Shown in pieces: positions 43,551-63,795 of a stretch of DNA of 64,000 nt. Under the pieces are notes generated by a model, which worked only from the letters and a program-made list of their open reading frames with translations, was not told the DNA's origin and searched no databases. Positions within the stretch are counted from its first letter, which is position 1. Each line of letters begins with the position of its first letter. This DNA is from an uncultured Amylibacter sp. (GTDB lineage: Bacteria; Pseudomonadota; Alphaproteobacteria; Rhodobacterales; Rhodobacteraceae), in the NCBI GenBank assembly GCA_947497475.1, contig CANMGS010000001.1:186001-250000 (forward strand), in the 5' to 3' direction. Both the position numbers and the translations under genes were made by a program.

Positions 43551-43626
43551 GGGGCCTTAGCTCAGCTGGGAGAGCGCTTCGCTGGCAGCGAAGAGGTCAG
43601 GAGTTCGATCCTCCTAGGCTCCACCA
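43551..43626 (+). tRNA. tRNA-Ala(GGC)
   Basis: A complete 76-nt tRNA with CCA encoded. Acceptor GGGGCCT pairs with AGGCTCC (one G-U); D-arm GCTC...GAGC; anticodon stem CTTCG/CGAAG around loop CTGGCAG with anticodon GGC; T-arm AGGAG/CTCCT with TTCGATC loop. Such tRNA 3' ends often mark island boundaries, and the genes downstream are accessory; however, I found no second copy of its 3' end in the window. Confidence 0.97.
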
Positions 43627-43711
43627 ATATTCGAAATACTTTCAGTAATATTTTCAGTAGGTTAAGCGGTATTCGACTACCTCTTAAGGCTGTTGTCATC
43701 TTTTACGAAGA

Positions 43712-43735
43712 GGTCACGGGTCACCTCTCGGTCAC
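43712..43735. repeat. triple GGTCAC motif downstream of tRNA-Ala
   Basis: GGTCAC occurs at 43712-43717, 43719-43724 and 43730-43735, and the first two lie inside a GAGGT...ACCTC hairpin. It could be a recombination remnant or a tRNA-operon terminator; no function is claimed. Confidence 0.4.
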
Positions 43736-43816
43736 TCGAATTGTTTAGAAAAGCGTTGTCCAGTAGTACAGCATGCTTCCGAATAGATGCATATTACAGC
43801 TAATAGATAGGTAACC

Positions 43817-46532: not shown

Positions 46533-46649
46533 AAGACACCTTTTCGTAAAATGTATGTTCAAGAATTTAGAGCTAAATGCAGATTTGTGGCTTTAATTAT
46601 GAAGCCTTTTCAGATTCTTGCAAGTCTCGTGAAACGTTAATGCTTTCAA

Positions 46650-47858
46650 TCATAAGCCAACAAAGAATTGGATTATCACTGCGTTGGCTAAATCTACAAA
46701 GAATGCGGAGACTAAAGGTAACACAATAAACGCCATTGGTGCTGATCCATATCGCTTAGTCACAGATGACATATTAGCTATCGCTGTCGGTGTTGCACCC
46801 AATGCAAATCCTGCAAATCCCGCACTAATAACAGCTGCGGTGTAAGTACGACCCAACACAATAAATACGATGAAGACAATGAAGAGCGTTGTCATGATAA
46901 CCTGCATTACGAGGACAGTTATTAATGGCCCACCTAATTCAGCCAAAGTCCAAAGCTGCATACTCATCAATGACATCGCAAGAAAAACAGACAGGGAATA
47001 ATCAGATATGATTGCCAAACCTTTGCTTCGCGCTGGCCAAATCATTTTCGGGAAAATATACGGCACAGTATTCGACATTATGATGCCAACCAATAGACAT
47101 GGGACAAAGAGCGGTAATTTCACACCCATTTCCCCAAGGGCATAAAATGCGAATGCTCCAAATAGAATAGCAATATGGGCTGCCAGCATTCCGCGCATCA
47201 AGCTCACATGATCGACAGTTTCAGCTATCTCATTCGTATCTTCGAATTCTAAACCGACAATTGGGTCCTCATCCGAAGAACCTGATAAGTTATTTCGGTC
47301 AATCAAACGTTTTGCAATTGGACCACCAATGAGTGCTGCACAAATTAAGCCAAGGGTAGCTGCGGCAATTCCGATCTCATCTGCCGCTGCAAAGCCTGAA
47401 GTTGTCTCAATCTGTGGCCCCCAAGCTATCGCCGTTCCATGCCCGCCGATTAATGAGGCTGAACCTAGTAAAACTGACACTGGAGCTGGTAAATCAAACA
47501 ATACAGTTCCTAAAAGGCCAACAACATTTTGTAAAATCATGAAGCCAATCGTTAAACCCAATAGGATAAGCAGCAAGCGGCCTCCACGTATCAAATCAGA
47601 GATTTGAGCATTCAAGCCAATGGTCGCAAAGAAGAGTACAAGCAGGTAATCGCGCACAGCTAAATCAAAGGTGACTTGGCGGTTTGTGAAAATGAAGAAA
47701 ACCCAAACAGCAATGGCAACAACCAATCCGCCAGATACTGGTTCTGGAATGTTGTAATCTTTTAGGAATGCTACACGGCGCGTCAGAAAAGACCCTAAGA
47801 AGAAAACTATGAAACCTAGAGTAACGGCTAAGAAAGCAGGAACCTCAAGAGTAATCAT
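46650..47858 (-). CDS. gltS: GltS-type sodium/glutamate symporter
   Basis: A 402-residue inner-membrane transporter with about ten hydrophobic segments and the family motifs LGSASLIGGHGTAIAWGP and GFALGATPTAIANMSSVTKRYG, the pore loops of GltS. It imports glutamate with sodium. It runs in the direction of the molybdoenzyme gene with 117 bp between them, but a shared role is not evident. Confidence 0.9.
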   Translation of the reverse strand: MITLEVPAFLAVTLGFIVFFLGSFLTRRVAFLKDYNIPEPVSGGLVVAIAVWVFFIFTNRQVTFDLAVRDYLLVLFFATIGLNAQISDLIRGGRLLLILLGLTIGFMILQNVVGLLGTVLFDLPAPVSVLLGSASLIGGHGTAIAWGPQIETTSGFAAADEIGIAAATLGLICAALIGGPIAKRLIDRNNLSGSSDEDPIVGLEFEDTNEIAETVDHVSLMRGMLAAHIAILFGAFAFYALGEMGVKLPLFVPCLLVGIIMSNTVPYIFPKMIWPARSKGLAIISDYSLSVFLAMSLMSMQLWTLAELGGPLITVLVMQVIMTTLFIVFIVFIVLGRTYTAAVISAGFAGFALGATPTAIANMSSVTKRYGSAPMAFIVLPLVSAFFVDLANAVIIQFFVGL

Positions 47859-48269: not shown

Positions 48270-48791
48270 TTAACTAAGTTTTTCAAATTCTTCCAAGAAC
48301 CAACCCTTTGCATCTGCAGTTCCAAGAGCTTCAATTCGATTAGTGTTCTTCACCTCCGGTGCACTGTTAGGCCATTCTTCCGGTTCACCCACCATCAGCA
48401 CCTTTTTTTCGTCTACCAATAATTGCACGTCTGCACGTTTAAGCTCTGCACAAGAGAACAATTTCGGATCAATTCCAAACCGTTCCCCTATCGCTTGCTC
48501 CATCTTCCATTCGAATTCTTTGAATTGCGGGAGCTGTGTTTTAAGTGGTGATGGTACATCGCCCAGATACGCTTCCGCTGCATCATGCAACAGTCCAATC
48601 ATAGCCAGTTTAGGATCAATTTCACGGGACACATGTACGGAATGCTCCGCGACTGAATAGAATTTGGTGCAATGCCCATTGAAGCGGCAGAGCAACGACA
48701 ACGCATGGGCAATATCTTCGATATAAATCTGGTCTGGGTCTGGGTCATCCAATGGGAACTTTTTACCTGTAAACGTTTGTATCCATGCCAT
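48270..48791 (-). CDS. HD-domain phosphohydrolase (YfbR/YfdR-like)
   Basis: A 173-residue protein with HCTKFYSVAEHSVHVS, GLLHDAAEAYLGDVPSPLK (the HD pair) and later conserved Asp. Such enzymes are 5'-deoxynucleotidases; related genes are common in prophages and islands (YfdR). It is the last gene of a three-gene minus-strand group with the 72-residue protein and the RNase-H-like protein. Confidence 0.87.
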   Translation of the reverse strand: MAWIQTFTGKKFPLDDPDPDQIYIEDIAHALSLLCRFNGHCTKFYSVAEHSVHVSREIDPKLAMIGLLHDAAEAYLGDVPSPLKTQLPQFKEFEWKMEQAIGERFGIDPKLFSCAELKRADVQLLVDEKKVLMVGEPEEWPNSAPEVKNTNRIEALGTADAKGWFLEEFEKLS

Positions 48792-49120: not shown

Positions 49121-49747
49121 TCACAATTCAGGATCGGGCCGAATAACCAAGCAGCGATCGTGTAGAAGTTTTGGATCATCAACCCACCCTGCCCGTAATG
49201 CACATGCGCCCGCCAATGAAAGCACCTCCGTACCCGTTACGGCGTTACACCCGCCTAAATCGGGCAATGCTTTTTGGAAGCCTCTGGCCGCATTTAAAGC
49301 ATCGCGCCAATGTTCTCCTGGAGCCGCATGGTTGGCACCCGATACAAATGCCTCCCATAGCAGCATAGAATTACCTTTGGGCCATATATTCCAATCCATT
49401 GTTGCAGTCGTATCCATACGGGCTCGGAGTTGCGTTAACGTGTAAGTCACAATGGCTAAACCGATTGTCGTCACAGTAGCTCCTGCCCCTGCCGACCATG
49501 GACGACCATTTTCGCCCTGCCGTTGTGCAGTAAGCTTAGGTAATTCTGTATTCAATGGAATAAACAACGGGCATTCAAACCCCAAAGCAGAGGGTTTACT
49601 TTTTGCTTGGTTAGCAAACGTTTCGATGAATACATCTAAATCGGTACCATGGGTTTCTTGATCACCATCTATGATGGCCCAGCCGATGTTACGCGGTGCG
49701 CCCACATCAATAGCGCCAATGATAATATCGGTTGGAATATCTTGCAT
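49121..49747 (-). CDS. hypothetical protein, RNase-H-like fold
   Basis: A 208-residue cytoplasmic protein. It starts with IIIGAIDVGAPRNIGWAIID and has an acidic residue in LGFECPLFIP and one late (GTEVLSLAGAC), a spacing reminiscent of RNase H/RuvC-like nucleases (DUF429-like). The assignment is weak. It opens the group with the 72-residue protein and the HD hydrolase and is divergent from an XRE gene. Confidence 0.55.
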   Translation of the reverse strand: MQDIPTDIIIGAIDVGAPRNIGWAIIDGDQETHGTDLDVFIETFANQAKSKPSALGFECPLFIPLNTELPKLTAQRQGENGRPWSAGAGATVTTIGLAIVTYTLTQLRARMDTTATMDWNIWPKGNSMLLWEAFVSGANHAAPGEHWRDALNAARGFQKALPDLGGCNAVTGTEVLSLAGACALRAGWVDDPKLLHDRCLVIRPDPEL

Positions 49748-49869: not shown

Positions 49870-50211
49870 ATGAACGAACAAATCAAATCCTATTTAGCGA
49901 GCCAACTACGCTCGTTTCGCCGCCAAGCTAAACTCACTCAAGAAGAGTTGGGCGTACGCATCCATCGCACTGGCGAAGCCGTTTCTAATATAGAGCGCGG
50001 CAAGAGCGTACCTACCTTAGAGACGCTTGTAGCATTGTCGGAAACGCTATCCATTCCACTCCGGGATTTTTTCCCGACTGGAGCGTTTGATGATGATGTT
50101 AGCCAGAACCGTCTAAAACTTGAAGCAGAAGCCGCATCAATGTTGCGCGGCCTCACAGATGCACAACTGCATGTGGCATTAAAACAGATAAAAGCACTGG
50201 AAGACTATTAA
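49870..50211 (+). CDS. XRE-family (Cro/C1-type) transcriptional regulator
   Basis: A 113-residue protein with an N-terminal HTH (LRSFRRQAKLTQEELGVRIHR and TGEAVSNIERGKSVPTLETL) and a short helical C-terminal part. Its start overlaps a perfect palindrome, an arrangement seen in phage-type repressors that regulate themselves. It is divergent from the RNase-H-like gene. Confidence 0.88.
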   Translation: MNEQIKSYLASQLRSFRRQAKLTQEELGVRIHRTGEAVSNIERGKSVPTLETLVALSETLSIPLRDFFPTGAFDDDVSQNRLKLEAEAASMLRGLTDAQLHVALKQIKALEDY

Positions 50212-50869: not shown

Positions 50870-51427
50870 CTAGAATTTATATATGCCACCTAAAGCAACA
50901 CGTGTATTTGTGAAGCCGTAATCACCACCAACTAATGGTGCGTCAAAAATAGTACCGCTATCTACCAATGCTTCTACGCGTACAGCAAAGTGATTTGAAA
51001 TATCATATTCCGCACCTAGACCGAAGGTTATACCAGTGCCATGCCCATCATTACCATTTACATCTGACTGGAAATCTTGGCGTACAGCGCCAATAACACC
51101 ATATGCTTTTACAACACCAAAATCTTTACCTGCTTGTACTTTAAAACGAAGCTGTTCACCATCCTGAGTAAAGCCTGCAACACCTACTTCTTGGCCAGGC
51201 TGATATTCAAGCTCAAAGCCATAAAAGAAGCTTGGTTGGTTAATTCTTACACCAGCAAATCCAGAAAATGCTGTATCAGACCCTTCAGATGGAAAGTCTC
51301 GGAACTCATGGTCATTATGTGCAAAAGCTAAACCAGCATAAAACTGATGTTTAGCGGTCTCTTCAGCATAAGCTGTAGCTCCGACCATACACAGCGATGA
51401 AGCCATTAAAATAAACTTCATTTTCAT
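50870..51427 (-). CDS. outer-membrane beta-barrel protein
   Basis: A 185-residue protein with a signal peptide (MKMKFILMASSLCMVGATAYA) and alternating beta strands ending in the terminal aromatic motif IYKF. It resembles the 8-strand OmpA/OmpW-like barrels of Rhodobacterales. Lys/Asp-rich loops and a Gly-rich turn suggest a porin-like or adhesion role, which is not decided. Confidence 0.85.
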   Translation of the reverse strand: MKMKFILMASSLCMVGATAYAEETAKHQFYAGLAFAHNDHEFRDFPSEGSDTAFSGFAGVRINQPSFFYGFELEYQPGQEVGVAGFTQDGEQLRFKVQAGKDFGVVKAYGVIGAVRQDFQSDVNGNDGHGTGITFGLGAEYDISNHFAVRVEALVDSGTIFDAPLVGGDYGFTNTRVALGGIYKF

Positions 51428-52000
51428 TTTAATCCCCTTTAAGATTTACGTTGGTGAATTTATTGATTTATATGACAAAAGCAACAATTTTCTTATTTAG
51501 ATGATATTTCTCAATCATGAGCATCAATGAAGGCTTTAACTTTATCTAGAAGGAATAACGCCACCAATCCCACACCTCACTCCCCCACGATCCCCGAGAC
51601 CGTTGCATGGAGAGCGTCAGGGGGCTGTAGCGTGGCGCACAGGGTGGCACAGTCGTAGCCTTCGAGACGATCAGCACCCGAGACTCCCGCCACTGGCCCT
51701 GACTTTCGCCTCGCCGCAGCAGAGTTTGGAGGAAAGCTGATACGTTTCTTAGAAATAGAGTAGCTCCCTCAGCCCCTGCCAAAGTTATCCAGTGTAAAAT
51801 GCCATAAGGTTTTGCCTTTTTCATGCAGACCTTTGCCTTTATGGACACATAGGTTTGCCTTTGGGTCTCAAATTCGCCCTAAAGCGGTCAATTACTCAAA
51901 TTATCAGATGTCTGCTTTGAGCCCAAATTTACTGAATACCGTATCACAACGAACGTCCGTTCTCAGTAGACAGATATAATATTAGTTGTATTGTGCAACT
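51428..52000. other. 573-bp intergenic region with a GC-rich block
   Basis: No gene is supported. From about 51550 to 51735 the composition jumps to roughly 60% GC, unlike its neighbours, with translations in several frames but no family I recognise. The right part holds a half copy of the dispersed repeat (51907-51937) and the MarR operator. Confidence 0.55.
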
Positions 52001-52001
52001 A
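51983..52001. promoter_or_regulatory. MarR-type operator across the start of the MarR-GNAT gene
   Basis: TAGTTG and CAACTA are perfect 6-bp arms with 7 nt between. The site ends on the A of the ATG (52001), so binding would block both transcription and translation start. Confidence 0.6.
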
Positions 52002-52966
52002 TGTATCCAATACTCACAACGCCTCGCATTGATAAAATACGCTCTGCTGCACGACATGTTGTACGCGAGTTGGGTTTTATGCAAACTGGACTTGCTGGTA
52101 CAGACCTATCGCCTTCGGCTGTGCATACGATCATAGAGATTGGTTATTGCACAGTGACCAATGCAAGCGGCCTTGGGGCGCTGCTACATTTAGAAAAATC
52201 CAGTGTCAGCCGCCTTATTCAAAAGCTGGAGAATGAAGGTCTGATCGAAGTCGGGCCTGATCCAAATGATAGACGGTCACGAGTTCTTACCTTGACGCCA
52301 GATGGGAAAAGCTTGCTTGGCAAAATTGAAGGCTATGCACGGCGACAACTTAGGTTTGCACTAAATGTTCTTTCAACGAGCGATGTGGCGCAAATCGAAA
52401 AAGGTCTTGGCCTGTTTGCAAAGGCATTAGCAACAGAAAATCAACTTACTTTGAAAGATCGTGCAGAAATAGAGGTGCATGAAGGCTACCGTTCGGGTGT
52501 AATTGCATCGGTGACGCACTTGCATGCATCTTTTTACTCCAAAAACTACGAATTCGGTGCTGTTTTCGAGCGTAAAGTTGCAACTGAAATGTCGGAGTTC
52601 ATGGCAAGAATCGACAAACCTATCAATACAACATTTTCTGCCTATCAGGGCGACGAGTTACTTGGCTCAGTGTCCATTGATGGCGAAGACCTTGGAGAAG
52701 GCATCAGTCACTTGCGATGGTTCATCGTCAACCCAAGGGCGCAAGGTATGGGGATCGGGAACCTTCTTCTTGATAAAGCCACGTCCTACGTAGACCAAAT
52801 TGCCGTAGATCGCACTAGGCTCTGGACGTTCAAAGGGCTAGATGCAGCGCGCCACCTATACGAAAAGCATGGCTTTAAATTAACCCATGAGACACCTGGC
52901 ACACAATGGGGCAAAGAAGTCATCGAGCAAGAGTATGTACGAAAGAGGACATTACCCAAGCAATAG
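52001..52966 (+). CDS. MarR-family regulator fused to a GNAT acetyltransferase
   Basis: A 321-residue fusion. Residues 1-145 are a MarR winged HTH (LGALLHLEKSSVSRLIQKLENEGLI and DPNDRRSRVLTLTPDGK); residues about 160-310 are a GNAT domain (FIVNPRAQGMGIGNLLLDKA, the acetyl-CoA loop). This bifunctional architecture is known in bacteria. The frame reaches back to a TTG at 51986 but ATG 52001 is better. The protein probably senses a small molecule and may acetylate it. Confidence 0.9.
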   Translation: MYPILTTPRIDKIRSAARHVVRELGFMQTGLAGTDLSPSAVHTIIEIGYCTVTNASGLGALLHLEKSSVSRLIQKLENEGLIEVGPDPNDRRSRVLTLTPDGKSLLGKIEGYARRQLRFALNVLSTSDVAQIEKGLGLFAKALATENQLTLKDRAEIEVHEGYRSGVIASVTHLHASFYSKNYEFGAVFERKVATEMSEFMARIDKPINTTFSAYQGDELLGSVSIDGEDLGEGISHLRWFIVNPRAQGMGIGNLLLDKATSYVDQIAVDRTRLWTFKGLDAARHLYEKHGFKLTHETPGTQWGKEVIEQEYVRKRTLPKQ

Positions 52967-52971
52967 TTAAC

Positions 52972-53011
52972 GGCAGCTTTGTCCCCCAGAGCTGACTTTC
53001 ACTAAGCTGCC
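52972..53011. repeat. hairpin with a degenerate copy of the dispersed repeat
   Basis: GGCAGCTT (52972-52979) and AAGCTGCC (53004-53011) pair perfectly. The loop carries GTCCCCCAGAGCTGAC, whose complement TGGGGGACAAAGC is shared with copy A. It lies 6 nt past the MarR-GNAT stop and overlaps the stop of the next minus-strand gene. Confidence 0.5.
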
Positions 53012-53169
53012 AATTCAACTATAACCCAATCAGGATTTTCGAATTTCCCATCTTGTTCAATTGCCCAATCAATATAGCTGATTTCGACAGATGTTGATCG
53101 TGCAATTATATCTGCACCGGCCTCGATGCTGTCGCCATTGCATCTGTCGGTCAATCGATATAGCCGCAT
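53002..53169 (-). CDS. small hypothetical protein
   Basis: A 55-residue acidic protein (MRLYRLTDRCNGDSIEAGAD) starting at ATG 53169 with GGGA 10 nt upstream. The frame extends to 53256 but the extra part is hydrophobic and unlikely. No family recognised; it may belong to the integrative element. Confidence 0.45.
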   Translation of the reverse strand: MRLYRLTDRCNGDSIEAGADIIARSTSVEISYIDWAIEQDGKFENPDWVIVELAA

Positions 53170-53263
53170 TTTACTGTCCCATTGAAACCCAAAAATCTCA
53201 AAAAAACACACCGTAAATTTGGGCACAATTATTCCCGTTTCATACAATAAAAGCACTGCATGC

Positions 53264-53400
53264 TGTCTATATGTCTATAGGCAAAGAGCAATCCGCGCGC
53301 GTACGCGGAGATATACTCCCCCTCAGGTACATAACCGTGCCCGAGGGAGGTATCACCGAGCGGCATGAGCGTGCCATCGGCTATGTATATAGCTAGACGG
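53264..53400. other. structured intergenic module at the element's left side
   Basis: Begins with TGTCTATATGTCTATAG (two 8-bp units), then TCCGCG-CGCGTA-CGCGGA, CCCTC...GAGGG and GGCA...TGCC hairpins, and ends with the inverse CTATGTATATAGCTAGAC. It contains GGGAGGTATCACCGAGCG (53345-53362), matching a partner at 55313-55330 in 16 of 18 bases. Possibly an attachment site or an RNA. Confidence 0.55.
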
Positions 53401-53811
53401 TCATGGCCACTGCCGATACCTTATCCGTTTCATAGATGGTTGCACTTTTTCAAAGAACGTTTGCACCAGAAGTCTCTGCGATCTTGTTGTGTATCTGTCC
53501 CGTTTAAAGCCGACAAGGCGGCAGGGTAATGGCTCCAATATATTCCCATGGATATTATAATGAGGATATTCACCTTTAATCTCGGGATGTAGATAGGCCG
53601 CGACAATTACATCTGATTTAGAAACATAAAACCCGCACCAAGACTCAACAGCGTGTTTTATGTCTGAGAGTTTATTTGTTCGGTGAATTGTTTTTTGTTG
53701 TGCATCTAACCATTCGTAAACTGCCCGAATACAATTATCATCTATGTGTAGCGCATCTGGTAATTTCAGTGCTTCGCGTTTGCCACGTTCTATATCTTCT
53801 TTGCTAAGCAT
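53401..53811 (-). CDS. hypothetical protein downstream of the integrase
   Basis: A 136-residue hydrophilic protein (MLSKEDIERGKREALKLPDA; KHAVESWCGFYVSKSDVIVA). The frame reaches 53895 inside int, but AAGGA (at the int stop) 7 nt before ATG 53811 fixes the start. It is co-transcribed with int. Function unknown. Confidence 0.6.
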   Translation of the reverse strand: MLSKEDIERGKREALKLPDALHIDDNCIRAVYEWLDAQQKTIHRTNKLSDIKHAVESWCGFYVSKSDVIVAAYLHPEIKGEYPHYNIHGNILEPLPCRLVGFKRDRYTTRSQRLLVQTFFEKVQPSMKRIRYRQWP

Positions 53812-53815
53812 AATC

Positions 53816-55057
53816 TTATCCTTTCGTTGAGTAGACTGCATCGAGGGTTTCAAGTGCTTCAGCACCCCCTCGTACTGCTTGTGTGTAATGACCAAGTGTT
53901 ATTGCTGGATTGGAATGGCCGGCCAATTTTGCCACGAGCCCCACTTCAACACCTTGAGCCTGCAAAGTGCTGACAAATGAGTGACGCGCTGAATGGTGGG
54001 TGACATACCGCACCCCTGCCCGCTCGAATGCGGGTTTCCAATAGCGGTGCAGATAGTTTGCATAGATTATCGGCCCGCCAGCACCAACCGGCTGTTGCGG
54101 CCATGCACGGCGTTTACCCGGCCCTGCAAAGACGCGGTAGAGATCACCATCTAATCTTGGGCAAATCAAACGCCATTCGAGCAACATCTGGCGCAAAGTT
54201 TGCATCATGGGGATTTCGCGTGTGCCCGCCTCGGTTTTAGTTTGATCCGTTGTTGTCCCATCGCGTTCCAAAACGCGCTTTATGGTAATGATATTGCGTT
54301 CAAAATCCACATCATCCCATAATAATCCCAACTGCTCGGATACACGCACCCCAGTCAGAAACGGGAACGCATAGAATATCCCCCATTTCTCCGTTTTAGA
54401 GAACTCAATAAAGTTACTGACTTCATCAGGCGTCAGAATATCCTTCTTGGGTTTATGTTTACGCCTGGCCAAGTTACGGGGTTTCTTGCACACGGGTACA
54501 TCAAAATCTTCTTCAGCTAATGCCAAAATAGCTTGGAGCATTTTCATGACTTCATTCGCAGTAAATTCACCCACCTCTACGCGTATCTGATTATGCCATT
54601 GTCGCAATCGCGCCGTAGTCAATGCAGAGACATTGTAATCACCCAGCATTTGCAAAAGTTTGGTATCGCGATGGGGTTTTTCGCCAGTAATCGCATAATG
54701 GGTTCTTTCCTGCGGTGTGCCCTTCAACAAAGGCCCAACTATAATCTTCACCAGAGATTTATAAGTTCTAAGAGTTTGACCTTTAATTTCTGTTGCTTTG
54801 AATTCCAGCCAATGTTCAACGGCTTCAGCCACAGTAGGGTTTGTTTTAGGGCTAAAATATTGGCCCCCAATATGTTGTGCAAGCAACGCGTCTCGCGCCA
54901 ATTCAGCATCTGCTTTGGTGTCAAATGAACGGCGAACTTTACCACCTGTTTCTGGACACCGATAATTGATTGTGTGTTTTTTAGATTTACGCAACTTGCC
55001 ATTCACGTCAGTACGTTTGCGGTTCCACACACCTAAAGTGATCTTGAGGTTATCCAT
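53816..55057 (-). CDS. int: tyrosine recombinase (phage-type integrase)
   Basis: A 413-residue integrase. The N-terminal SAM-like domain is near residues 50-160; catalytic Arg in FLTGVRVSEQLGLLWDD, HxxR in HHSARHSF, and His plus Tyr nucleophile in AGHSNPAITLGHYTQ are complete. It drives site-specific integration of the element. Start: AAAGGG 8 nt before ATG 55057. It is the left module of a compact element with primase and VapE genes to its right. Confidence 0.93.
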   Translation of the reverse strand: MDNLKITLGVWNRKRTDVNGKLRKSKKHTINYRCPETGGKVRRSFDTKADAELARDALLAQHIGGQYFSPKTNPTVAEAVEHWLEFKATEIKGQTLRTYKSLVKIIVGPLLKGTPQERTHYAITGEKPHRDTKLLQMLGDYNVSALTTARLRQWHNQIRVEVGEFTANEVMKMLQAILALAEEDFDVPVCKKPRNLARRKHKPKKDILTPDEVSNFIEFSKTEKWGIFYAFPFLTGVRVSEQLGLLWDDVDFERNIITIKRVLERDGTTTDQTKTEAGTREIPMMQTLRQMLLEWRLICPRLDGDLYRVFAGPGKRRAWPQQPVGAGGPIIYANYLHRYWKPAFERAGVRYVTHHSARHSFVSTLQAQGVEVGLVAKLAGHSNPAITLGHYTQAVRGGAEALETLDAVYSTKG

Positions 55058-55449
55058 GTTGCAGCCCTTTCCAATTTGAAAAAGCTTCAAAAAAACATAT
55101 CAAAAATTTCTCAAAATATGTGGCTCGGTGACACATGAATGACCAAAGGGTATTAAAAATACCAATGGAAAATTTCGAGGATGCTTCAAAATACGCTCCC
55201 GATTGATCCAAAAAAACGGGCCGCGGAAATGTAAATTTTGCACCCCCAACGAAGAGGTCAGCTTTGTGACAGATTTTCTGTTCTACACGTTCTATATGTT
55301 CTATATATTTTAGGGAGGTATCGCAGAGCGAGAGACGGCTCTGCGACGAGCCGTTAGGGGTTAACGAAATACCCCGAACATATAGAACACCCAGAACAAG
55401 AACTGAAATAAGGGGGCACGAATGCCCCCCCGATAATAGTATTATGTAA
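55058..55449. other. 392-bp intergenic region upstream of int, origin-like
   Basis: No gene. It contains the int promoter and a dense set of repeats at 55280-55390 (three 9-bp direct repeats, an inverted 13-bp pair and hairpins), described separately. Confidence 0.6.
55280..55388. repeat. iteron-like repeats, inverted 13-mer and alternative hairpins
   Basis: Direct repeats GTTCTACAC, GTTCTATAT, GTTCTATAT (55280-55306) abut each other. GTTCTATATGTTC (55289-55301) is matched by its exact inverse at 55376-55388. Between them TCGCAGAGC/GCTCTGCGA (9-bp stem) competes with ACGGCTC/GAGCCGT (7-bp stem), followed by GGGGT/ACCCC. It has the look of a plasmid or satellite origin, or of an attachment site. 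Confidence 0.6.
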
Positions 55450-55779
55450 TTAGGCATTTCCTCTCGCCCGCTGGAAAAGCATTCGAATAGTCTTCAGGTA
55501 ACTCATATTTATCGAACTTCCGTCGTCTAAATATGCTCCAAAACAGGTGGTAAAACCTTCATTCCCCAAAGTCCTCCACCCAACGATTGAACGGCTTTTT
55601 ATGCTGGCTGTCTTTTCTGACCGGCTGTTAAATAGAAAAGTAAGCAATTCACATATATCTTTATCAAGAATGAACTCGCCTACTGGGCGTTTATACAGCC
55701 AAGGACGCAGTAACTTTATTAATGCCGCTTGAGTTTCAAAGCTCCCCATTGGGGTATGTATTATTGTTTTATTAGTCAT
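55450..55779 (-). CDS. DCL/DUF3223-like protein
   Basis: A 109-residue protein. The C-terminal half GFTTCFGAYLDDGSSINMSY matches the end of DCL/DUF3223 domains (aromatic-Cys-Phe ... DGS ... S-Y). The N-terminus is TPMGSFETQAALIKLLRPWL. Bacterial function is unknown. Start: AAGGA 7-8 nt before ATG 55779; the frame reaches 55848. Confidence 0.6.
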   Translation of the reverse strand: MTNKTIIHTPMGSFETQAALIKLLRPWLYKRPVGEFILDKDICELLTFLFNSRSEKTASIKSRSIVGWRTLGNEGFTTCFGAYLDDGSSINMSYLKTIRMLFQRARGNA

Positions 55780-55877
55780 ATTTTTTCCTTTCTTAAGGAT
55801 TGGGTTGAACGCAAACATCATGCCCACGCCGATGTCAGACCAGCCCATTGGTGCTGACCAGTTTGGTTGTGTGGTTT

Positions 55878-57509
55878 CTAGAAGAGTGTTTCGTCAGGCA
55901 GCTCTGTGGGTCGCCTGTAACCTTGGAGAGATCGATCACCGATACGGATGCGCGATGGCCCATCCCACCCTAGTTGCCGCATATTCTCAGCAATGCGTTT
56001 TGGATGAAAACTTTGACGCTGTCCCGCAGGAATATGTAGGTAGCTTTCCCCGTATAGTGTTTCAGTAAACACCCGTTCTTCGCCCGACACTGCGATGCCT
56101 TTCACAGCAGAGAGAACATCCAACCATGGATCAGTTTGCATACGCCCAGTTTGAGCTTCAGTGGCAGCCTTGATTAGTTCTTCAGGTAGGTGAATAAGAA
56201 AGCCTTGTTGTTCCAACTGGCTGGCTTCAGCCCACAGTTGGTCGCGGTCACGATGCAATCGAGCCAAATCTATTTCACCCGTCTTGATGGGTAAAAATCT
56301 ACGATTACCAGTAGTATCTTTCAGATAGAAACTTTCATTGGTTGTGCCAACAAAGATCACCTGACGTGGCCAAGCTTCCCGAAAATGTGCATACGCCCGT
56401 CTGGCGCGATCAACCTGACGTGTGATGAAGGATTTCATGCGACTGGTTTCAATGCGGTTCATACCGTCCATTTCAGCAATCTCAAAAATCCAAATGCCTT
56501 CAACGCCTTCCATTTGCGTTTTATCATCGCGAGATAGAATACTTTGATCACTGAAGAACTCATCGCTTGCTAAAATTCGCAAAGCAGTAGATTTACCCGA
56601 ACCCTGATTACCTTCAATAACGACCATAATATCGTATTTAACACCCGGATTTCGGATACGCCGCACTCCAGCCACCAGCATCATTTGGCCAGCGAACCTG
56701 TGCAATTCTGTATCTTCTGCCCTGAAATAATCAGAGAAGAGTGTATCCAGTCTTTTGATACCGTCCCACTGTAATGTATCCAGATAATCTTGAACTGGAT
56801 GAAATGGGTTTTTTAATGCAATAATTGTTACTGCATCCAAAACATTTTGGCGAAATGGATCGAAGTCAAAATCATTAATGATGCGATCACGAATGATCGC
56901 ACAGGCTTTATCTGTAATTTCCCCATTGTAGAGTTGAACTACATGACCAGATATTGTTAAGCGATTGCGAAATTGATCATAACGGCAATCCAGCCCCAAC
57001 TTAATAAGTGCGAAGATTGTATTACGCAAAGTTCTGAGTGGTTTGCCGTCTTTGTTGACGTCTGGAAAATTCGCATCAACGGCCAACATCGCCCGCACGA
57101 CTTGCCGCCAAGCATAACTCGGCGAACTTGGCCGTCCCAACACATGTGCAGAAATCTTATATATTGGGTTGATTAAAAGACCCGCAATCAGCTCTAGAGG
57201 CACATCCATTTTATACAACTGACAAGCAAGGGCGAATGTAGCATGACTACGTGAGTTATAATGCGCGTCTTTGGAGCCTATTGGATTTGCAAGATTATCT
57301 CCATGATCAATAAGTTCATGTAACCGTTCCGAAAGCTCGACGCCCAATTCATCTTTGTGACGGGGGATAATCTGTGCATTCGGCTCTAGTATTGCCAATT
57401 TACTATGTGAAGCCACATTAAGGGTCGCATCTTGGCCCTTTTTAAAGTAAGGTTCAAAAGCAGTAATGCTATGTATTTGCAAATTTTGGTCAAGATCATT
57501 TGATGACAT
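55878..57509 (-). CDS. VapE/VirE-family ATPase (replication-associated)
   Basis: A 543-residue protein. The C-terminal VirE domain (PF05272) has Walker A GNQGSGKST, then GIWIFEIAEMDGMNRIE and VIFVGTTNESFYLKDTTGNR. In phages and satellites this protein acts with a primase in element replication. Start: GGAGG 9 nt before ATG 57509, overlapping the primase stop by 14 nt, so translation is coupled; the frame reaches 57551. Confidence 0.9.
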   Translation of the reverse strand: MSSNDLDQNLQIHSITAFEPYFKKGQDATLNVASHSKLAILEPNAQIIPRHKDELGVELSERLHELIDHGDNLANPIGSKDAHYNSRSHATFALACQLYKMDVPLELIAGLLINPIYKISAHVLGRPSSPSYAWRQVVRAMLAVDANFPDVNKDGKPLRTLRNTIFALIKLGLDCRYDQFRNRLTISGHVVQLYNGEITDKACAIIRDRIINDFDFDPFRQNVLDAVTIIALKNPFHPVQDYLDTLQWDGIKRLDTLFSDYFRAEDTELHRFAGQMMLVAGVRRIRNPGVKYDIMVVIEGNQGSGKSTALRILASDEFFSDQSILSRDDKTQMEGVEGIWIFEIAEMDGMNRIETSRMKSFITRQVDRARRAYAHFREAWPRQVIFVGTTNESFYLKDTTGNRRFLPIKTGEIDLARLHRDRDQLWAEASQLEQQGFLIHLPEELIKAATEAQTGRMQTDPWLDVLSAVKGIAVSGEERVFTETLYGESYLHIPAGQRQSFHPKRIAENMRQLGWDGPSRIRIGDRSLQGYRRPTELPDETLF

Positions 57510-58074
57510 AAGCAAGTGCCTCCGTCCGACCAGCCGCACGTTTTTTCTCATTTGGCCAATTTACTGTACCAGGTAGCCGCATAATCCGATCCACATTGAA
57601 ACAATCATCAGCGCCAAGTGTCAGCGCAAGCCCACGATTTATTGCTTCGGCTTTTTCCATATCGTGCAGAGGTTCATCAAGTTTCCAAAAAGCTTGATAA
57701 CCACCGCCCGAAAATAAAATAATTGTTGGCTTTGGTGTGATACTTTGCAATCTCGCTAAGGCACTTGCGCGTGGGTCATCCAAATCAACATGAAATGAAG
57801 TTACACATTCAATATCAGATTTCTTAGCCTTCCTGTTGGTCACAGCTGGTTTTAATGCGTTGACGTGGAAATAGATGTTAAATTTCTCACGGTTCTTTTG
57901 CGCAATCCATTCGAGCATTCCAGTGTGATCATTCTTTGCGAATGTTTTAGCAGCGATCTTTCCCGTTGGAGAAATAACCACAAGTGTTCGAAAGTCGAAG
58001 GGACTAATGATGTTCAGAAAAGGAACGATTTGACTTTTATTTGGGCGTAATGGTTCCATAACTTGCTTAGCCAT
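57496..58074 (-). CDS. RepB-like AEP primase
   Basis: A 192-residue primase. The catalytic FHVDLDD (Asp pair) is followed by IILFSGGGYQAFWKLDEPL and DRIMRLPGTVNWPN, the archaeo-eukaryotic primase pattern. With the VapE ATPase downstream it forms a primase-helicase pair. Start: GGAGGG 7 nt before ATG 58074, overlapping the AlpA stop by 8 nt. Confidence 0.85.
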   Translation of the reverse strand: MAKQVMEPLRPNKSQIVPFLNIISPFDFRTLVVISPTGKIAAKTFAKNDHTGMLEWIAQKNREKFNIYFHVNALKPAVTNRKAKKSDIECVTSFHVDLDDPRASALARLQSITPKPTIILFSGGGYQAFWKLDEPLHDMEKAEAINRGLALTLGADDCFNVDRIMRLPGTVNWPNEKKRAAGRTEALAYVIK

Positions 58075-58276
58075 TACCCTGCCCTCCAAACGCCGCGATT
58101 GCATCGCGCACTTCGGACAGGACAACACGTTTTCGCTTTGAAAACGGTCGATAAGATTTTACAAACCCAGCGTTTTCAGCACGCCGGAGTGTAGACGCGG
58201 GAATTCCCAACGCCTTGGCTGCCTGCGGCAGCGTTAGATAACGACAATCGCAATCATTGGTTTTTTGGTTAATCAT
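58067..58276 (-). CDS. AlpA/excisionase-like helix-turn-helix protein
   Basis: A 69-residue DNA-binding protein with an MerR/AlpA-type HTH (LTLPQAAKALGIPASTLRRA) and a basic tail (SKRKRVVLSEVRDA). Such proteins activate int or act as excisionase. ATGGAG precedes the ATG. Its stop overlaps the primase start. Confidence 0.82.
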   Translation of the reverse strand: MINQKTNDCDCRYLTLPQAAKALGIPASTLRRAENAGFVKSYRPFSKRKRVVLSEVRDAIAAFGGQGNG

Positions 58277-58366
58277 TTGATAACTCCATTTTTGTTTGGA
58301 GTACCGGGTCCGATACCTTGGGGCCTAATTAACGGAGGAATTAACTTTACAAAATAATCAAACTTT

Positions 58367-58383
58367 GGGGGAACTAGCTCCCC
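58367..58383 (-). terminator. hairpin at the end of the two-gene unknown unit
   Basis: GGGGAGCTAGTTCCCC on the minus strand (GGGGA paired with TCCCC) begins at the stop codon of the preceding gene. The T-run is poor, so it is only a possible terminator. Confidence 0.4.
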
Positions 58384-58740
58384 TCAAAAGAAAGTAAAGT
58401 TATGGCGTCCAATTGGCGGTATTTTTGGCTCGTCGTTGCTCGGAGATGCCAACAATCCCAACGAAGCTTTGTTCTTCTTGGAGCGTTTGATGTTTTCGGG
58501 TAGCACCTTTTCGATACCGCCGTCACGTAAACCTAGTGCCCTAGAAAACCATTCCTTAGTGAACTTTGGCGGCAGAGCAACTTCGCCCTTATGGATACCA
58601 AAAGTGACGTCAAGAAAGTCTCTGTGAAATTGAATTACAGAGTCGTTTTGCTCAGACACTTGCCAGCGACGCCAGTGAAGATACCACTTCAATTGAGCTT
58701 GCCTAGTATTTACTTGCGCACTGCGCGCTGCGGCTCTCAT
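58384..58740 (-). CDS. unknown protein, element cargo 2
   Basis: A 118-residue basic protein (QLKWYLHWRRWQVSEQNDSV; PPKFTKEWFSRALGLRDGG). No family recognised. Its start overlaps the stop of the upstream unknown gene (ATGA), so the two are coupled. It could be regulatory, defence or a structural interference factor, none of which is shown. Confidence 0.6.
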   Translation of the reverse strand: MRAAARSAQVNTRQAQLKWYLHWRRWQVSEQNDSVIQFHRDFLDVTFGIHKGEVALPPKFTKEWFSRALGLRDGGIEKVLPENIKRSKKNKASLGLLASPSNDEPKIPPIGRHNFTFF

Positions 58741-59126
58741 GCCCTTCTATCATCTTCATTCGACATCAAAGGGTTGCATACGAAACCGTGGCACGCAGCC
58801 AAAAGTGTCCAAGCCTGAATAAATTCGTCATCGATTTTTTTGGCATCAATTTTATCTCTCGTGAAATTCAGGCCTTTTACGGCCAAATCATAAAATAACT
58901 TTAAATTTTCGTGATCTTCTGAAACCCTGTAAGGAATTAAAAACAGATCTTCAAAATTGACTTCACCATCTTCCATAAATCTTTTTGTTTTCTTGTCTAT
59001 TGCGTCTTGTTTAGTCTGGAATTTCACTCCTGTGATGTCATTTTTCATAATAGTCCAAATATAGTCGAAAAATTCTTCTCGAGATTTGGGGCGCAGATAT
59101 TTCACATGGTCGAAATAATACGGCAA
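58737..59126 (-). CDS. unknown protein, element cargo 1
   Basis: A 129-residue helical protein (FDYIWTIMKNDITGVKFQTK; FEDLFLIPYRVSEDHENLKL). No family recognised. It is the first gene of the pair and sits at the right side of the integrative element, where cargo genes often lie. Confidence 0.6.
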   Translation of the reverse strand: MPYYFDHVKYLRPKSREEFFDYIWTIMKNDITGVKFQTKQDAIDKKTKRFMEDGEVNFEDLFLIPYRVSEDHENLKLFYDLAVKGLNFTRDKIDAKKIDDEFIQAWTLLAACHGFVCNPLMSNEDDRRA

Positions 59127-59300
59127 ACTCTCCTACAGCCTTGTCATTTTGACATCATCATACTGCCATCCGGCACGCGAGCAATCAAAGCCTGATTATC
59201 AATGGCGGAAAATTATACAGGTAGTCATTGAAAAATAAACAAATTGGGCGGAAAGTGGTCATTGCGCTAATAGCAGTCTTTTAGTTGCCTCGATGTAACG

Positions 59301-59332
59301 AACGTCTGCTTATGAGCCCAAACTAGACATTC
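59301..59332. repeat. dispersed palindromic repeat, copy F
   Basis: AACGTCTGCTTATGAGCCC followed by AAACTAGACATTC, 35 nt before the NYN gene's stop. It lies at the right side of the integrative element, mirrored by the degenerate copy at 52972-53011 on the left. Confidence 0.72.
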
Positions 59333-59367
59333 ACATAAGCTTTCTTCGGATCTCAAAATCTCACCTG

Positions 59368-60078
59368 TCAAATCAATCGTGCAGATAGAATTTTCCCAAT
59401 CTTGCGAATTTCAAACTGATCGAGATTGCTAACAAGATCACTAAGTTTTTTACATCCATAGGTACGAGTATCAAAATCTGAATTTGTAGCCATGATTTGT
59501 TTACCCAAAGCAGAAAGTGAATACCAATCATCATCCTGCTCGATTTTCTCCATTGCTGCAATAATCAGTGGAGCCGCATTAATTGCAGGAAGTTTGTTAC
59601 TTTTACTCTTTGTTCCACTCTTCGTTGGGATAGGTTCGTCTATTATGTTTTCTATAAGTACAAAACGGTTGCAAACATTACGTAGGCTTTCAGGTGTCTT
59701 ACGTTCACCAATGCCAATAACTTCCAAACCTTGTTCACGTATACGGTTAGCAAGAGCTGTAAAATCGCTGTCAGAGCTAACCAGAACAAACCCGTCGAAA
59801 CGACCTGCATGTAAAATATCCATCGCATCAATTACTAAACCGATATCACTAGCATTTTTACCTTTGGTATTTGCCGTTTCTTGGTGTGCAACTAGCCCGT
59901 GTTCACGAACGGTATCGGCCCAACCTCGAAGTTGTTCACTAGACCAGTCGCCATAAACACGTCTCAAAGCTAATTCACCAAACGTTGCTATCTCCTTAAG
60001 AATTGCTTTTGCATGTTTAGCAGGAATGTTGTCTGCATCGATAAGGACAGCATATAGTGGGCGGTTTCGTGTGAGCAT
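59368..60078 (-). CDS. NYN-domain (LabA-like) putative RNase with a LOTUS-like tail
   Basis: A 236-residue protein. The NYN domain has AVLIDADNIPAKHAKAIL and VIDAMDILHAGRFDGFVLVS, then SSDSDFTALANRIREQG, carrying the conserved Asp residues of PIN-like nucleases. A linker and a C-terminal OST-HTH/LOTUS-like domain (residues about 165-236) complete it. It probably degrades RNA. It follows the racemase gene by 9 nt with AAGGA overlapping the racemase stop. Confidence 0.86.
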   Translation of the reverse strand: MLTRNRPLYAVLIDADNIPAKHAKAILKEIATFGELALRRVYGDWSSEQLRGWADTVREHGLVAHQETANTKGKNASDIGLVIDAMDILHAGRFDGFVLVSSDSDFTALANRIREQGLEVIGIGERKTPESLRNVCNRFVLIENIIDEPIPTKSGTKSKSNKLPAINAAPLIIAAMEKIEQDDDWYSLSALGKQIMATNSDFDTRTYGCKKLSDLVSNLDQFEIRKIGKILSARLI

Positions 60079-60087
60079 TTGAGTTCC

Positions 60088-61209
60088 TTAAATTAAAGTA
60101 AGGTTAGGAGTAAGTTGAAGCGCGGCATTATCTTTTGGAGGCCGCCTTCTATTATGGACAACCTTTTTAATATTAGGAGCATTCATTGCTCGCATCAGCG
60201 CACTATAATTCGGGCGAAGTTTAACCTCAGCTCCAATCGCAAGGCTAACAGCGCCTGTATCAAGGACCATATGGTCACTGGTAGCCCCAATGAATGAAAT
60301 ATTTATTGGTAATGAAAGACCCTCAATATCTGTATCTTGGTATCCAATTGCTAGAATGGACTGCATCGCTTTACTGTTATCAATCACGACGTGGATCGCA
60401 GATGGTTTAGGCCCGCCCGTGCGCCAACAGTTACGTTCAGGTTTGACTTTTGTTTCAATAACTTCTGCAACAATGGTAAATGCATCAGTGAATAAACCAT
60501 CAATTCTAGCACCAGTAATTGGATCAACGCCAAGTAAGATTGACTCACCTAATCTCAAGTTATTGATCCTACCTACGTACTTACAATTGAATGCCCAAGG
60601 TAGATTTGCAGAGTTGCCGCCTGAGACCATTTCGAGTGATACATCGCATTCTGCTTCAAGATTATTAATAAAGTTAGAGAGCTCAATCATTGTTTTATGA
60701 TCAGGAACAATGCTGTTTAGACACGCAAAATTAGCGCCAATGCCCTTCAAAGTAATATTGGGAGTTATTAACACATCACGAACAAAGCCCTTAAGATCAT
60801 CTGGTTGTATACCTTCTCGCAAGTCACCCATTTCGACCATCAAGACAACATTGTGCCTTGTATTCATATGCTGTGCAGATTTTGAAAGCATCTGAATGAC
60901 GTCTAATTCTGTATTAAAACTTGTATCGCACCCTTTAATGACACGCCCCGCTTGGCTTTGCATAGGTGTACGAATAAGCGACATGGGGCATTTAATTCCA
61001 GATTGTCGTATCCGCTCAATATTTTCTATACGTGCATCCGCCAACTCAGATACACCACCATCAAGCATTGCTTGAGCAATTTCTGGGTGCCCACAAACAG
61101 CTTTAGTCACACCTGTGACGCGTACACTGCGCCGACTAAGCCTTTGAACTAAATGCCGTGTATTATGCCTGATTTTCTTTAGGTTTATCTCGATACGTGG
61201 TGCTGTCAT
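60088..61209 (-). CDS. PLP-dependent alanine/ornithine racemase-family enzyme
   Basis: A 373-residue type III PLP enzyme. The PLP lysine is in VTGVTKAVCG (near residue 36); VLMVEMGDLREG and EMVSGGNSANLPW follow, as in the YhfX/Orr group. It should racemise an amino acid, with ornithine, alanine or lysine as candidates. It starts in an ATGA overlap with the DUF1611 gene and is followed closely by the NYN gene. Confidence 0.88.
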   Translation of the reverse strand: MTAPRIEINLKKIRHNTRHLVQRLSRRSVRVTGVTKAVCGHPEIAQAMLDGGVSELADARIENIERIRQSGIKCPMSLIRTPMQSQAGRVIKGCDTSFNTELDVIQMLSKSAQHMNTRHNVVLMVEMGDLREGIQPDDLKGFVRDVLITPNITLKGIGANFACLNSIVPDHKTMIELSNFINNLEAECDVSLEMVSGGNSANLPWAFNCKYVGRINNLRLGESILLGVDPITGARIDGLFTDAFTIVAEVIETKVKPERNCWRTGGPKPSAIHVVIDNSKAMQSILAIGYQDTDIEGLSLPINISFIGATSDHMVLDTGAVSLAIGAEVKLRPNYSALMRAMNAPNIKKVVHNRRRPPKDNAALQLTPNLTLI

Positions 61210-62393
61210 TCCGCTGCTACTAAGGGATGTTTTCGAAGCAGAGGAAAAGCTTTGAAAACCATATCTAACAGCTCAATCTCTGGGCGCACTAAGGCATCTG
61301 TTACGGGTAAAGCCAGTTCTTTTGAAAAGTCTTTGATAGCTGTGTCTATTTGGATGTCCTTTAAGCCTTCATGATTGATCGTTAAGCCGATAACTTTTGC
61401 GTCCGAGAACATTTCGATCAACTTAATTTCGTTTTTTGGATCAGGCATTGGCATGTTTGGGAAGTCACATCTATGCGCACGATTTGGAGCGTGCTGCAAG
61501 ATAACGGCGTTGGGTTGGCTACCACGTAAAATAAAGGCAGAAGTGCAAAATGCAGGATGGCTCAAAGCACCTTGCCCTTCAATGAGAATAACGTCTGGTT
61601 GTTCAGCATCAGAAGCTCTAACAATTGCCCCTTCAAGCTCACCAGAACAAAATTGCGGAGGGATCGCATCCATAGCGACACCATAGAGGGCACCTTGCAT
61701 CAAGCCTGTTTGACCAGTTCCGACCAGCACTGTTTTTATTCCCCATTCATTCAAAGCGCGAGCTAATACTGTTGCTGTCGTCCGTTTGCCAATTGCACAA
61801 TCTGTTCCAAGGATAGCTATTCGAATAGCCGATACCTTTTCGATGCTACTATTGAACAGGCGCATGTCTTTACTTGGTCGTGGTTTTCGAATGTCACGAA
61901 TGGATATTTTTCCTGCTACCTTTGCTGCCTCTACAATTTCTGGATCATCACTAAGATATTCGTGTAATCCACTGACAATGTTCATACCCAATGCAATGGC
62001 ATCTAATACGACCTCCCGATCCGCTAACGACAACTTTCCGTTAGAGGGTGCCATACCATAGATCAAAGTATCGGGAGTTTTGGTTTCGTTGATTGCGGCA
62101 GCTTCAAGGCCATCAAAAACACCAATACCGTTGGGTGTTGCATCCAAGAGTTGTCCACTGTCTTGACCTGCACATGTGCTGTCGATAACCGAAACTATAT
62201 TGTAAGCTTCGGAATGGCGCACAAGCCCATTTGCTGTTTTCCCATCAATTTTTGCAAAGTTACCTTCACAGTAAACGATAGCGGTTGGGGGTTGCTTACG
62301 GTTTTTATTTTTGCTGCCAGAATTGTTCTTTAGACTTTTTTTAGATTGTAATTCTTGTGCTGTATAAGCTTTGTTATTGAGTTGCGTTTTCAT
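61206..62393 (-). CDS. DUF1611-family (DgcN-like) protein
   Basis: A 395-residue protein. The NAD-like N-terminal domain (AIVYCEGNFAKIDGKTANGL) is followed by a P-loop-like GTDCAIGKRTTATVLARAL and IEGQGALSHPAF, the DUF1611 core. DgcN, a family member, is tied to N-acetylation of D-glutamate by published work as I recall. Start: AAGGA 8-9 nt before ATG 62393; the frame reaches 62435. A basic, low-complexity N-terminal extension (about 30 residues) precedes the domain. Confidence 0.83.
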   Translation of the reverse strand: MKTQLNNKAYTAQELQSKKSLKNNSGSKNKNRKQPPTAIVYCEGNFAKIDGKTANGLVRHSEAYNIVSVIDSTCAGQDSGQLLDATPNGIGVFDGLEAAAINETKTPDTLIYGMAPSNGKLSLADREVVLDAIALGMNIVSGLHEYLSDDPEIVEAAKVAGKISIRDIRKPRPSKDMRLFNSSIEKVSAIRIAILGTDCAIGKRTTATVLARALNEWGIKTVLVGTGQTGLMQGALYGVAMDAIPPQFCSGELEGAIVRASDAEQPDVILIEGQGALSHPAFCTSAFILRGSQPNAVILQHAPNRAHRCDFPNMPMPDPKNEIKLIEMFSDAKVIGLTINHEGLKDIQIDTAIKDFSKELALPVTDALVRPEIELLDMVFKAFPLLRKHPLVAAE

Positions 62394-62479
62394 GTCATAT
62401 CCTTTTAAGTCGTGCTGCTGTTTGCAAACCTGCAACCGCTGCCACGTCTATTTTTGAAAGTTTTGGATTATGCCTTAGT

Positions 62480-63596: not shown

Positions 63597-63795
63597 CGGC
63601 AACCTTCCAATAATGCCAAACCCCATCAAAGAGGCATAGCGTTCGAATTTCCTTGATAGTACATTGGCATTTTAACATGGCTCAGATAGCCAGTTCATCA
63701 AAACTACTAATGCTTGTTGATGCTACCCTAGCTCATATCAAGTAAACTAACAATGGATATAATATTTTCAAATATTTTAAGGGTAAGCATGAAGT

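Follow-up and report, generated by a model that had tools for sequence, protein, structure and literature searches.

In a 64,000-nucleotide stretch of DNA from an uncultured Amylibacter sp. (assembly GCA_947497475.1, contig CANMGS010000001.1, positions 186,001 to 250,000; G000:C1:186001-250000 in our numbering of genomes, G, and loci, L), referred to here as the window, we found that an integrase, a replication module and an AlpA-like regulator form the middle of an island integrated in a tRNA-Ala gene. The unit between its two attachment (att) cores is ~21.65 kb long. An earlier note had described the 6 kb at 53002-59126 as a compact integrative element; these 6 kb are probably the excision-replication core of a larger, helper-dependent island. 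The idea of an integrative element that brings its own genes for integration (int) and replication (primase/VapE) and carries cargo is upheld, but its compactness is not: islands with the same integrase family measure about 7.7 to 31 kb. Our reading is built on the att repeats, the intact int, AlpA, primase and VapE frames, the absence of the island from a close genome and its membership in an integrase family.

Ends, target site and genes of the island

The left end lies at tRNA-Ala(GGC), the sole tRNA that ARAGORN found in the window, the 3' end of which forms the left core (attL, Table 1). A perfect 46-bp copy (attR) stands at G000:C1:251189-251234, that is, window coordinate 65189-65234, 1.2 kb beyond the window, and the 38 kb inspected contained no further exact copy. 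Because of this perfect repeat at 43582-43627 and 65189-65234, the integrated unit is ~21.65 kb and not 6 kb. The arms inside the cores resemble those of other islands: ~100 bp 3' of the tRNA are 70-74% identical to other left ends (L048, 74% over 95 bp; L121 and L043, 70-71%), and ~200 bp before the attR copy share 71-78% identity with right island ends in G009 and in G025, a genome of the same genus group as G000. Enrichment of GGTCACC was rejected (3 copies found in the window, 4.5 expected); because its count is not above chance, a role of this motif in the arms is suggested by position only.

A genome without the island was found in G018, the nearest by flanking DNA (left 88-94%, with 88% over 1190 bp; right 89% over 5.9 kb). 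There, the tRNA and the right flank are present, the island is absent, and neither the integrase nor VapE has a match in the genome. The earlier note had envisaged locating the ends by comparison with an empty site; the G018 site is not a clean one, and the ends came from the 46-bp repeat instead. Extra core copies occur in five of the 33 genomes of the genus (G000, G001, G009, G024 and G025). The tRNA-Ala site may be a hot spot, because a different integrase-like protein stands at the same site in G021 (L122 1270-3141, a 623-aa protein followed by a resolvase-like gene, by eye).

A 78-bp stretch at 59131-59208 was discarded as the right end of the island, being superseded by the 46-bp tRNA copy 6 kb further on. 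It lies outside predicted genes, is present once in G000 and recurs at L025 15261-15338 and L037 447-504; the copy in the G025 island is 82% identical, that in G024 74% identical over 58 bp. Dispersed repeats at 51765-51912 and 59245-59331 have 85-91% identical copies elsewhere in G000 and in G018.

The core reads, in order of coordinates, 84-aa gene, ~135-aa gene, int, candidate origin, 132-aa gene, VapE, primase, AlpA, 118-aa gene and 129-aa gene. All genes named in the earlier note are indeed on the minus strand, although this single orientation does not extend to the ~21.65-kb island, which has genes on both strands. The translational overlaps that it described were confirmed at 8 nt for AlpA/primase, 14 nt for primase/VapE (with the VapE start inferred at 57509; the longest frame reaches 57551) and 4 nt (ATGA) for the 129-aa/118-aa pair. 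Profile matches bear out the identities of integrase, VapE, primase and AlpA, but that of the DCL/DUF3223-like protein is at best weak: the 132-aa product, which has a 34% identical relative in L065, matches one PADLOC model at E=0.0044 and no Pfam family at 0.1.

The integrase retains R238, K274, H355, R358, H381 and Y391, which we take to be the catalytic R-K-H-R-H-Y residues. The AlpA-like protein is 71% identical to its counterpart in the G025 island and scores 20.9 bits against Pfam HTH_17 (PF12728), below the cut-off of 27; VapE reaches 26.0 bits against DUF5906 (PF19263, cut-off 27.6), and the primase is ~44% identical to small primases of Pseudomonas phages. The 84-aa open reading frame (ORF) at 53002-53256 is probably a real gene, because relatives occur in three family islands (39% identical in L043, 48% in L048 and 40% in L050). 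Upstream of int, a stretch of 35-36 bp (window 55115-55150, L053 9310-9344, L052 1724-1756), which includes GGTGACAC in the window, is 89% identical between the window and the Algimonas loci and could be a regulatory or binding site of int.

From the tRNA inwards, the left side carries the TorA/DmsA-like, glutamate symporter, HD, 208-aa, XRE, 97-aa unknown, beta-barrel and MarR-GNAT genes, and the core is followed on the right by NYN-LOTUS, alanine-racemase-like and DUF1611 genes and two unknowns. The C-terminal CxxCH of the TorA-like reductase resembles that of reductases with a fused cytochrome c domain. That torA came from a phage was rejected, the best-covering matched records resembling host DNA. 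We tentatively call the 208-aa protein DUF429-like; it matched no Pfam family. The XRE regulator has relatives in L043, L050, L051, L069, L075 and L121. The HD, 208-aa and XRE genes recur in the same order in G165; that they are chromosomal was rejected, because in G165 they also lie between tRNA-Ala and a second tRNA copy. The NYN-LOTUS gene may be portable cargo, because it is found, 83% identical, in another neighbourhood in G014, beside ATPase-like ORFs (L026 5796-7875, by eye).

Pfam and PHROGs scans of the island's own proteins, which covered all but the ORFs at 47934-48128, 48797-49015 and 63327-63629 (64, 72 and 100 aa), recognised no structural, lysis or conjugation family. Nor was any packaging, capsid-remodelling or phage-interference gene recognised in these proteins. 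The absence of capsid and lysis genes noted earlier thus stands for the proteins scanned, which include those on either side of the 6 kb.

Table 1. Features of the island in window coordinates
Feature	Position	Strand	Evidence or remark
tRNA-Ala (GGC), integration target	43551..43626	+	ARAGORN, Rfam RF00005
attL core, 46 bp	43582..43627	+	tRNA-Ala 3' end: last 45 tRNA bases and next base
Left end / att arm	43628..43741	+	GGTCAC-type repeats; conserved in relatives
TorA/DmsA-like molybdoenzyme with C-terminal CxxCH stretch, cargo	43890..46562	-	PF00384 1.6e-49, PF01568 1e-23; 35% to TorA
Sodium/glutamate symporter, cargo	46650..47858	-	PF03616 4.8e-105
HD-domain (YfbR-like) protein	48270..48791	-	PF12917 3.9e-6; 70% in L043 (G165 island)
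208-aa protein	49121..49747	-	60% in L043 (G165 island); no Pfam family at 0.01
XRE regulator, candidate repressor, tRNA side	49870..50211	+	PF01381 1.9e-11
Outer-membrane beta-barrel protein, cargo	50870..51427	-	PF13505 1.1e-15
MarR-GNAT fusion, cargo	51986..52966	+	PF01047, PF00583
Small protein, 84 aa as listed, start probably internal	53002..53256	-	relatives in three family islands
19-nt motif AGGGAGGTATCRCMGAGCG	53344..53362	+	second copy 55312-55330 in candidate origin; 0 in 100 shuffles
Unknown protein, ~135 aa, directly after int	53401..53811	-	no family match
Tyrosine integrase	53816..55057	-	PF00589, 1.6e-19
Candidate replication origin, iterons	55289..55388	.	upstream of int; three 9-bp iterons TTCTAYAYR 55281-55307 and inverted copy 55379-55387
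132-aa protein, weakly DUF3223/HamC-like	55450..55848	-	PADLOC 'HamC2|HamC, DUF3223 domain' model E=0.0044
VapE-type helicase	55878..57509	-	PF05272 1.6e-70; phrog_256 1e-88
RepB-type archaeo-eukaryotic (AEP) primase, 192 aa	57496..58074	-	PF16793 1.4e-10
AlpA/Xis-like small helix-turn-helix (HTH) protein	58067..58276	-	phrog_66 'excisionase and transcriptional regulator' 6.6e-6
118-aa unknown cargo	58384..58740	-	ATGA overlap with next gene; no family match
129-aa unknown cargo	58737..59126	-	24% relative upstream of primase in L073
NYN-LOTUS nuclease-like protein, cargo	59368..60078	-	PF01936 6.6e-39, PF12872 1.2e-14
Alanine-racemase-like (60088-61209) and DUF1611 (61206-62435) pair, cargo	60088..62435	-	domain scan

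Integrase family, replication modules and candidate origins

We scanned 84,980 species genomes with four integrases and obtained 35 integrase loci (one being G025), all alphaproteobacterial and 45-80% identical in the best segment. In 23 of these loci, the DNA beyond int contains a tRNA, encoded on the other strand, that points its 3' end towards int (16 Gly(GCC), 6 Ala(GGC) and 1 Val(TAC)); the distance from int is 1.4 to 9.6 kb in the relatives and 10.2 kb in the window. L050 carries an additional pair of tRNA-Asp on the other strand, and the remaining 12 loci show no tRNA in the available flanking DNA. Six of the 23 tRNA-linked loci have a second copy of the tRNA end within the sequence available. 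AlpA was found within 4.5 kb upstream of int at 21 loci and a replication module upstream of int at 29; four of the six module-less loci have less than 2 kb upstream of int, and L046 and L053 have no module despite room. The gene order AlpA-replication-int recurs across the family, and the kind of gene set that the earlier note would seek in other genomes does exist there.

Several loci bear signs of tandem islands: two integrases stand 26 kb apart by one tRNA-Ala in Aliiroseovarius marinus (L045, L047) and 14 kb apart in Shinella SUS2 (L060, L078), two full cores and one partial core occur in Algimonas (L053), and in G025 a first island of ~31 kb, spanning two contigs that overlap exactly over 141 bp, has a second left arm behind it. 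Other relatives look decayed (G165, without a recognised replication module; G340, a fragment only). A ~240-aa protein (MKDQYVGDINDYRKYALLRAL..., L066:12370-13095) lies ~1.1-1.9 kb beyond int in 18 of the 35 loci, in some with XRE-like neighbours, and its L066 copy had no Pfam or PHROGs match. A Shinella island (L057 4412-6484) carries a reverse transcriptase (RVT_1, 3.4e-12). Among the relatives' proteins we scanned 114 of the 116 ORFs of at least 90 aa, from ten loci in nine islands, leaving out two long L054 proteins; matches to the anti-phage models Drt3a/b, type II methyltransferases and AriA-like were among the 25 commonest of 135 PADLOC families. In titles and abstract starts, with subscription journals mostly uncovered, we found no description of this family in Rhodobacterales or Rhizobiales.

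Between AlpA and int, at least four combinations of primase and helicase types occur in the family: (i) a RepB-type primase with VapE, in nine loci plus the window; (ii) a Prim-Pol with a second helicase, in 11 loci plus two with only the helicase half on the contig; (iii) a Prim-Pol with a third helicase, in four loci; and (iv) a primase-like replication protein of ~865 aa, in three loci (L066:7016-9604, L079:7040-9646 and L074). L060 and L072 are classed by the helicase half alone. RepB-type primase and VapE share one open frame in seven of the nine relatives, are in two frames in the window and L069, and are interrupted in L056; a split common to the window and L049 was rejected, L049 being among the seven. 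Two scanned copies of the ~865-aa protein matched the primase PHROG phrog_35358 (4e-56 and 2e-55) and no Pfam family. Four other islands combine its C-terminal part with Prim-Pol N-termini.

On the integrase tree, module type requires at least 17 changes over 30 labelled tips (shuffled labels, 14.4 +/- 1.3; 3.5% of 5000 shuffles reached 17), whereas host genus, taken as a control over 34 tips, requires 18 changes versus 26.9 when shuffled. Because module type carries no phylogenetic signal on this tree and host genus follows it, replication modules are exchanged, and the integrase for the most part remains in its host lineage. That neighbours on the tree differ slightly more often than in shuffles is suggestive only. 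AlpA identity ranges from 51 to 91% across 13 close integrase pairs, a spread on which strict following of int by AlpA was rejected; thus, AlpA is sometimes exchanged too. The modules differ in both co-resident pairs of islands examined: one pair has Prim-Pol with the third versus the second helicase, and in the other the module class is the same and the helicases are 38.7% identical.

Does an origin accompany each module? In the window, the segment 55270-55410 folds with a z of -6.87 (0 of 200 shuffles as good), the inverted repeat was equalled in 0 of 60 shuffles, and TTCTAYAYR occurs eight times versus 3.1 expected; the window's own iterons are GTTCTATAT. The same position after the helicase gene was compared in the window and 28 relatives, a set without L077 and the six loci lacking a recognised module. 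An inverted repeat (<=1/60 shuffles) follows the helicase in 17 of these 29 loci, versus 4 of the 56 stretches taken from these loci as controls, and many of the repeat arms are runs of short iterons. Over the 260 bp after the helicase, shared 8-mers averaged 17.9 within and 10.8 between helicase classes (0 of 5000 label permutations, relatedness ignored), versus 12.0 within and 13.7 between classes in a control stretch beyond int. Because these 8-mers are shared more within a helicase class, the initiator and its cognate candidate origin appear to travel together. Motifs picked post hoc were each absent from the other helicase classes: GTGGCATG in 6/10 VapE loci, GGACGGAC in 5/7 third-helicase loci and TGGTGACG in 5/12 second-helicase loci. 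The 19-nt motif of Table 1 was rejected as a family-wide signal, its looser form being unmatched in most of seven sequences.

At its fullest, this picture would be that of a widespread alphaproteobacterial satellite family in which an Int-AlpA chassis carries interchangeable initiator-plus-iteron-origin cassettes. Their exchange would outpace integrase divergence and exceed chance between nearest relatives, as sharing a replicator would be penalised, either by the counter-defences of phages or by incompatibility of replicons in islands that lie in tandem at a single tRNA. We regard this full account as speculative and doubtful.

How the island might move

What could be the life cycle of such an island? 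A signal would relieve the XRE repressor, AlpA would act as directionality factor, and Int would recombine the 46-bp cores with each other, so that the tRNA site is restored and the island freed as a circle. Replication would then be started by primase and VapE helicase at the inverted iterons (55289-55388), island DNA would exit in the vehicle of another element, most likely a phage capsid, and Int would insert it into the tRNA-Ala of the next host. Between islands, the initiator and its cognate origin would be swapped as one cassette. Carriage by a phage is a serious possibility that falls a little short of an even call. VapE relatives are common in phage records generally, and no integrase more than 60% identical was present in phage and plasmid collections (23-30% among the matches listed).

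Several observations weigh against a helper-dependent island with a cognate origin. The G018 site holds 6.5 kb of other genes (DnaK/DnaJ-like and Fe-alcohol dehydrogenase, by eye), Int lies ~10 kb from either island end, and IMG/VR had no integrase relative (0/76 and 0/57 pattern matches). As to the origin, inverted repeats behind the helicase are not significant in 12 of the 29 loci, two of the 17 repeats (L055 and L078) are short hairpins, the window iterons are unlike the motif of other VapE loci and enclose a spacer of G+C 0.51, which is not A+T-rich, and the 132-aa gene stands between VapE and the iterons.

Alternatively, the island could be a mobilizable one that leaves by conjugation, with an origin of transfer (oriT) in cis, a helper plasmid or integrative and conjugative element (ICE), and replication serving maintenance. 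Such an exit would suit the lack of a recognised packaging gene in the proteins scanned and a size not confined to a small capsid, and SGI1 replicates when triggered by IncC helpers (PMC7433901). We consider it unlikely: no relaxase was recognised in the own-island proteins or among the 25 commonest of 79 Pfam families in the 114 ORFs of relatives, and AlpA, a primase-helicase and an inverted-iteron origin make a satellite-like set.

Quite unlikely, too, is a once-mobile island that is now fixed, with excision rare or never occurring, and kept for its cargo. The cargo is large and includes metabolic genes, and the integrase family is present (E <= 1e-40) in only two of the 33 genomes of the genus. 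Against this, all four frames (Int, AlpA, primase and VapE) are unbroken and the two att cores 100% identical, unlike the decayed-looking relatives described above. Descent from a larger temperate prophage by loss of its structural genes is very improbable: VapE and the small primase do have relatives in phage records, but no structural gene was recognised in the own-island proteins or among the 25 commonest of 89 PHROGs in the 114 ORFs of the nine related islands, and the integrase is only 23-30% identical in the 12 phage records listed. That 53002-59126 is itself mobile as a compact phage satellite is scarcely credible, for all the resemblance of its int, AlpA and primase with overlapping genes to PICMI115 (six genes, 6110 bases; PMC10803314), since no exact direct repeat of more than 10 bp joins 52960-53830 to 58280-59400, the best mismatch-tolerant end pair is 17 nt at 82%, the att cores are at 43582 and 65189, and relatives with two att copies span about 7.7-31 kb with the tRNA end outside int.

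Comparison with known helper-dependent elements

P4-like satellites are marked by psu, sid and delta besides int, AlpA and alpha. None of the psu, sid and delta families appeared in Pfam and PHROGs scans of the own-island proteins. Phage-inducible chromosomal islands (PICI; PMC6092414) share with the island an integrase, an AlpA-type master regulator, a primase with a replication initiator, accessory genes and a pair of iteron sets past the initiator gene (here with the 132-aa gene in between); as in PICI, the proteins scanned contained no recognised structural or lytic gene. The island differs in size (21.65 kb versus about 12-15 kb typically), in its internal int and cargo on both strands, in lacking a recognised terS or PICI-type morphogenesis gene, and in its spacer of G+C 0.51, since in the PICI origin, 3' of the initiator, two iteron sets flank an A+T-rich region. 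The att sites of PICI are described as never used by prophages (PMC6092414).

Phage-inducible chromosomal minimalist islands (PICMI; PMC10803314) are also found in marine hosts and have int, AlpA and a primase, and, as here, no capsid-remodelling gene is recognised. In PICMI, AlpA is reported as necessary and sufficient for activation and triggers excision, and the primase raises copy number (PMC10803314). With the Pfam models of that paper, int matched PF00589, AlpA (PF12728) and VapE (PF19263) were below cut-off, and the primase was RepB-type. The island is integrated in tRNA-Ala rather than fis, the PICMI hallmark, has 21.65 kb with much cargo and a RepB-type primase with VapE, and resides in Rhodobacterales, not Vibrionaceae.

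The I55-type islands at the tmRNA gene (PMC12595487) likewise combine a tyrosine integrase and AlpA with variable cargo and with direct repeats at a tRNA-like gene; no transfer genes are recognised in them, and they measure from under 20 to over 70 kb. A jumbo phage carries tmRNA islands that have Int and AlpA but lack transfer genes (PMC12595487). Here, however, int and AlpA are ~3 kb apart and internal instead of at opposite ends, the target is tRNA-Ala and not the tmRNA gene with intY, a primase-helicase-iteron module is present, and Pfam scans of the island's own proteins gave no RadC, YqaJ or Gp2-like match. A site-specific integrase, att repeats and no transfer machinery in the proteins scanned also agree with the description of a hitcher, an integrative helper-dependent element (PMC11389934).

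Replication-module exchange has been described before for the phage-inducible chromosomal island-like elements (PLE) of Vibrio cholerae, in which initiator and cognate iteron origin covary and appear swapped between related elements (PMC8263062). The PLE initiators are RepA_N proteins, whereas in the family described here primase-helicases of three helicase classes take this role. For PLE, experiments addressed cognate specificity, and selection by a phage nuclease has been proposed with experimental backing (PMC8263062); here both are conceivable. For many genomic islands no route of transfer is known; in this family of marine and soil Alphaproteobacteria the ends are defined, an origin can be proposed and the chassis is clear, with metabolic genes on the window island and proteins matching anti-phage models on relatives. 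Replicator cassettes apparently swapped under a slowly changing integrase would be a natural experiment on the exchange of replication modules in satellites and islands, and may help explain how helper-dependent islands evolve. We regard the island as a variant of known helper-dependent integrative islands, distinguished by interchangeable replicators.

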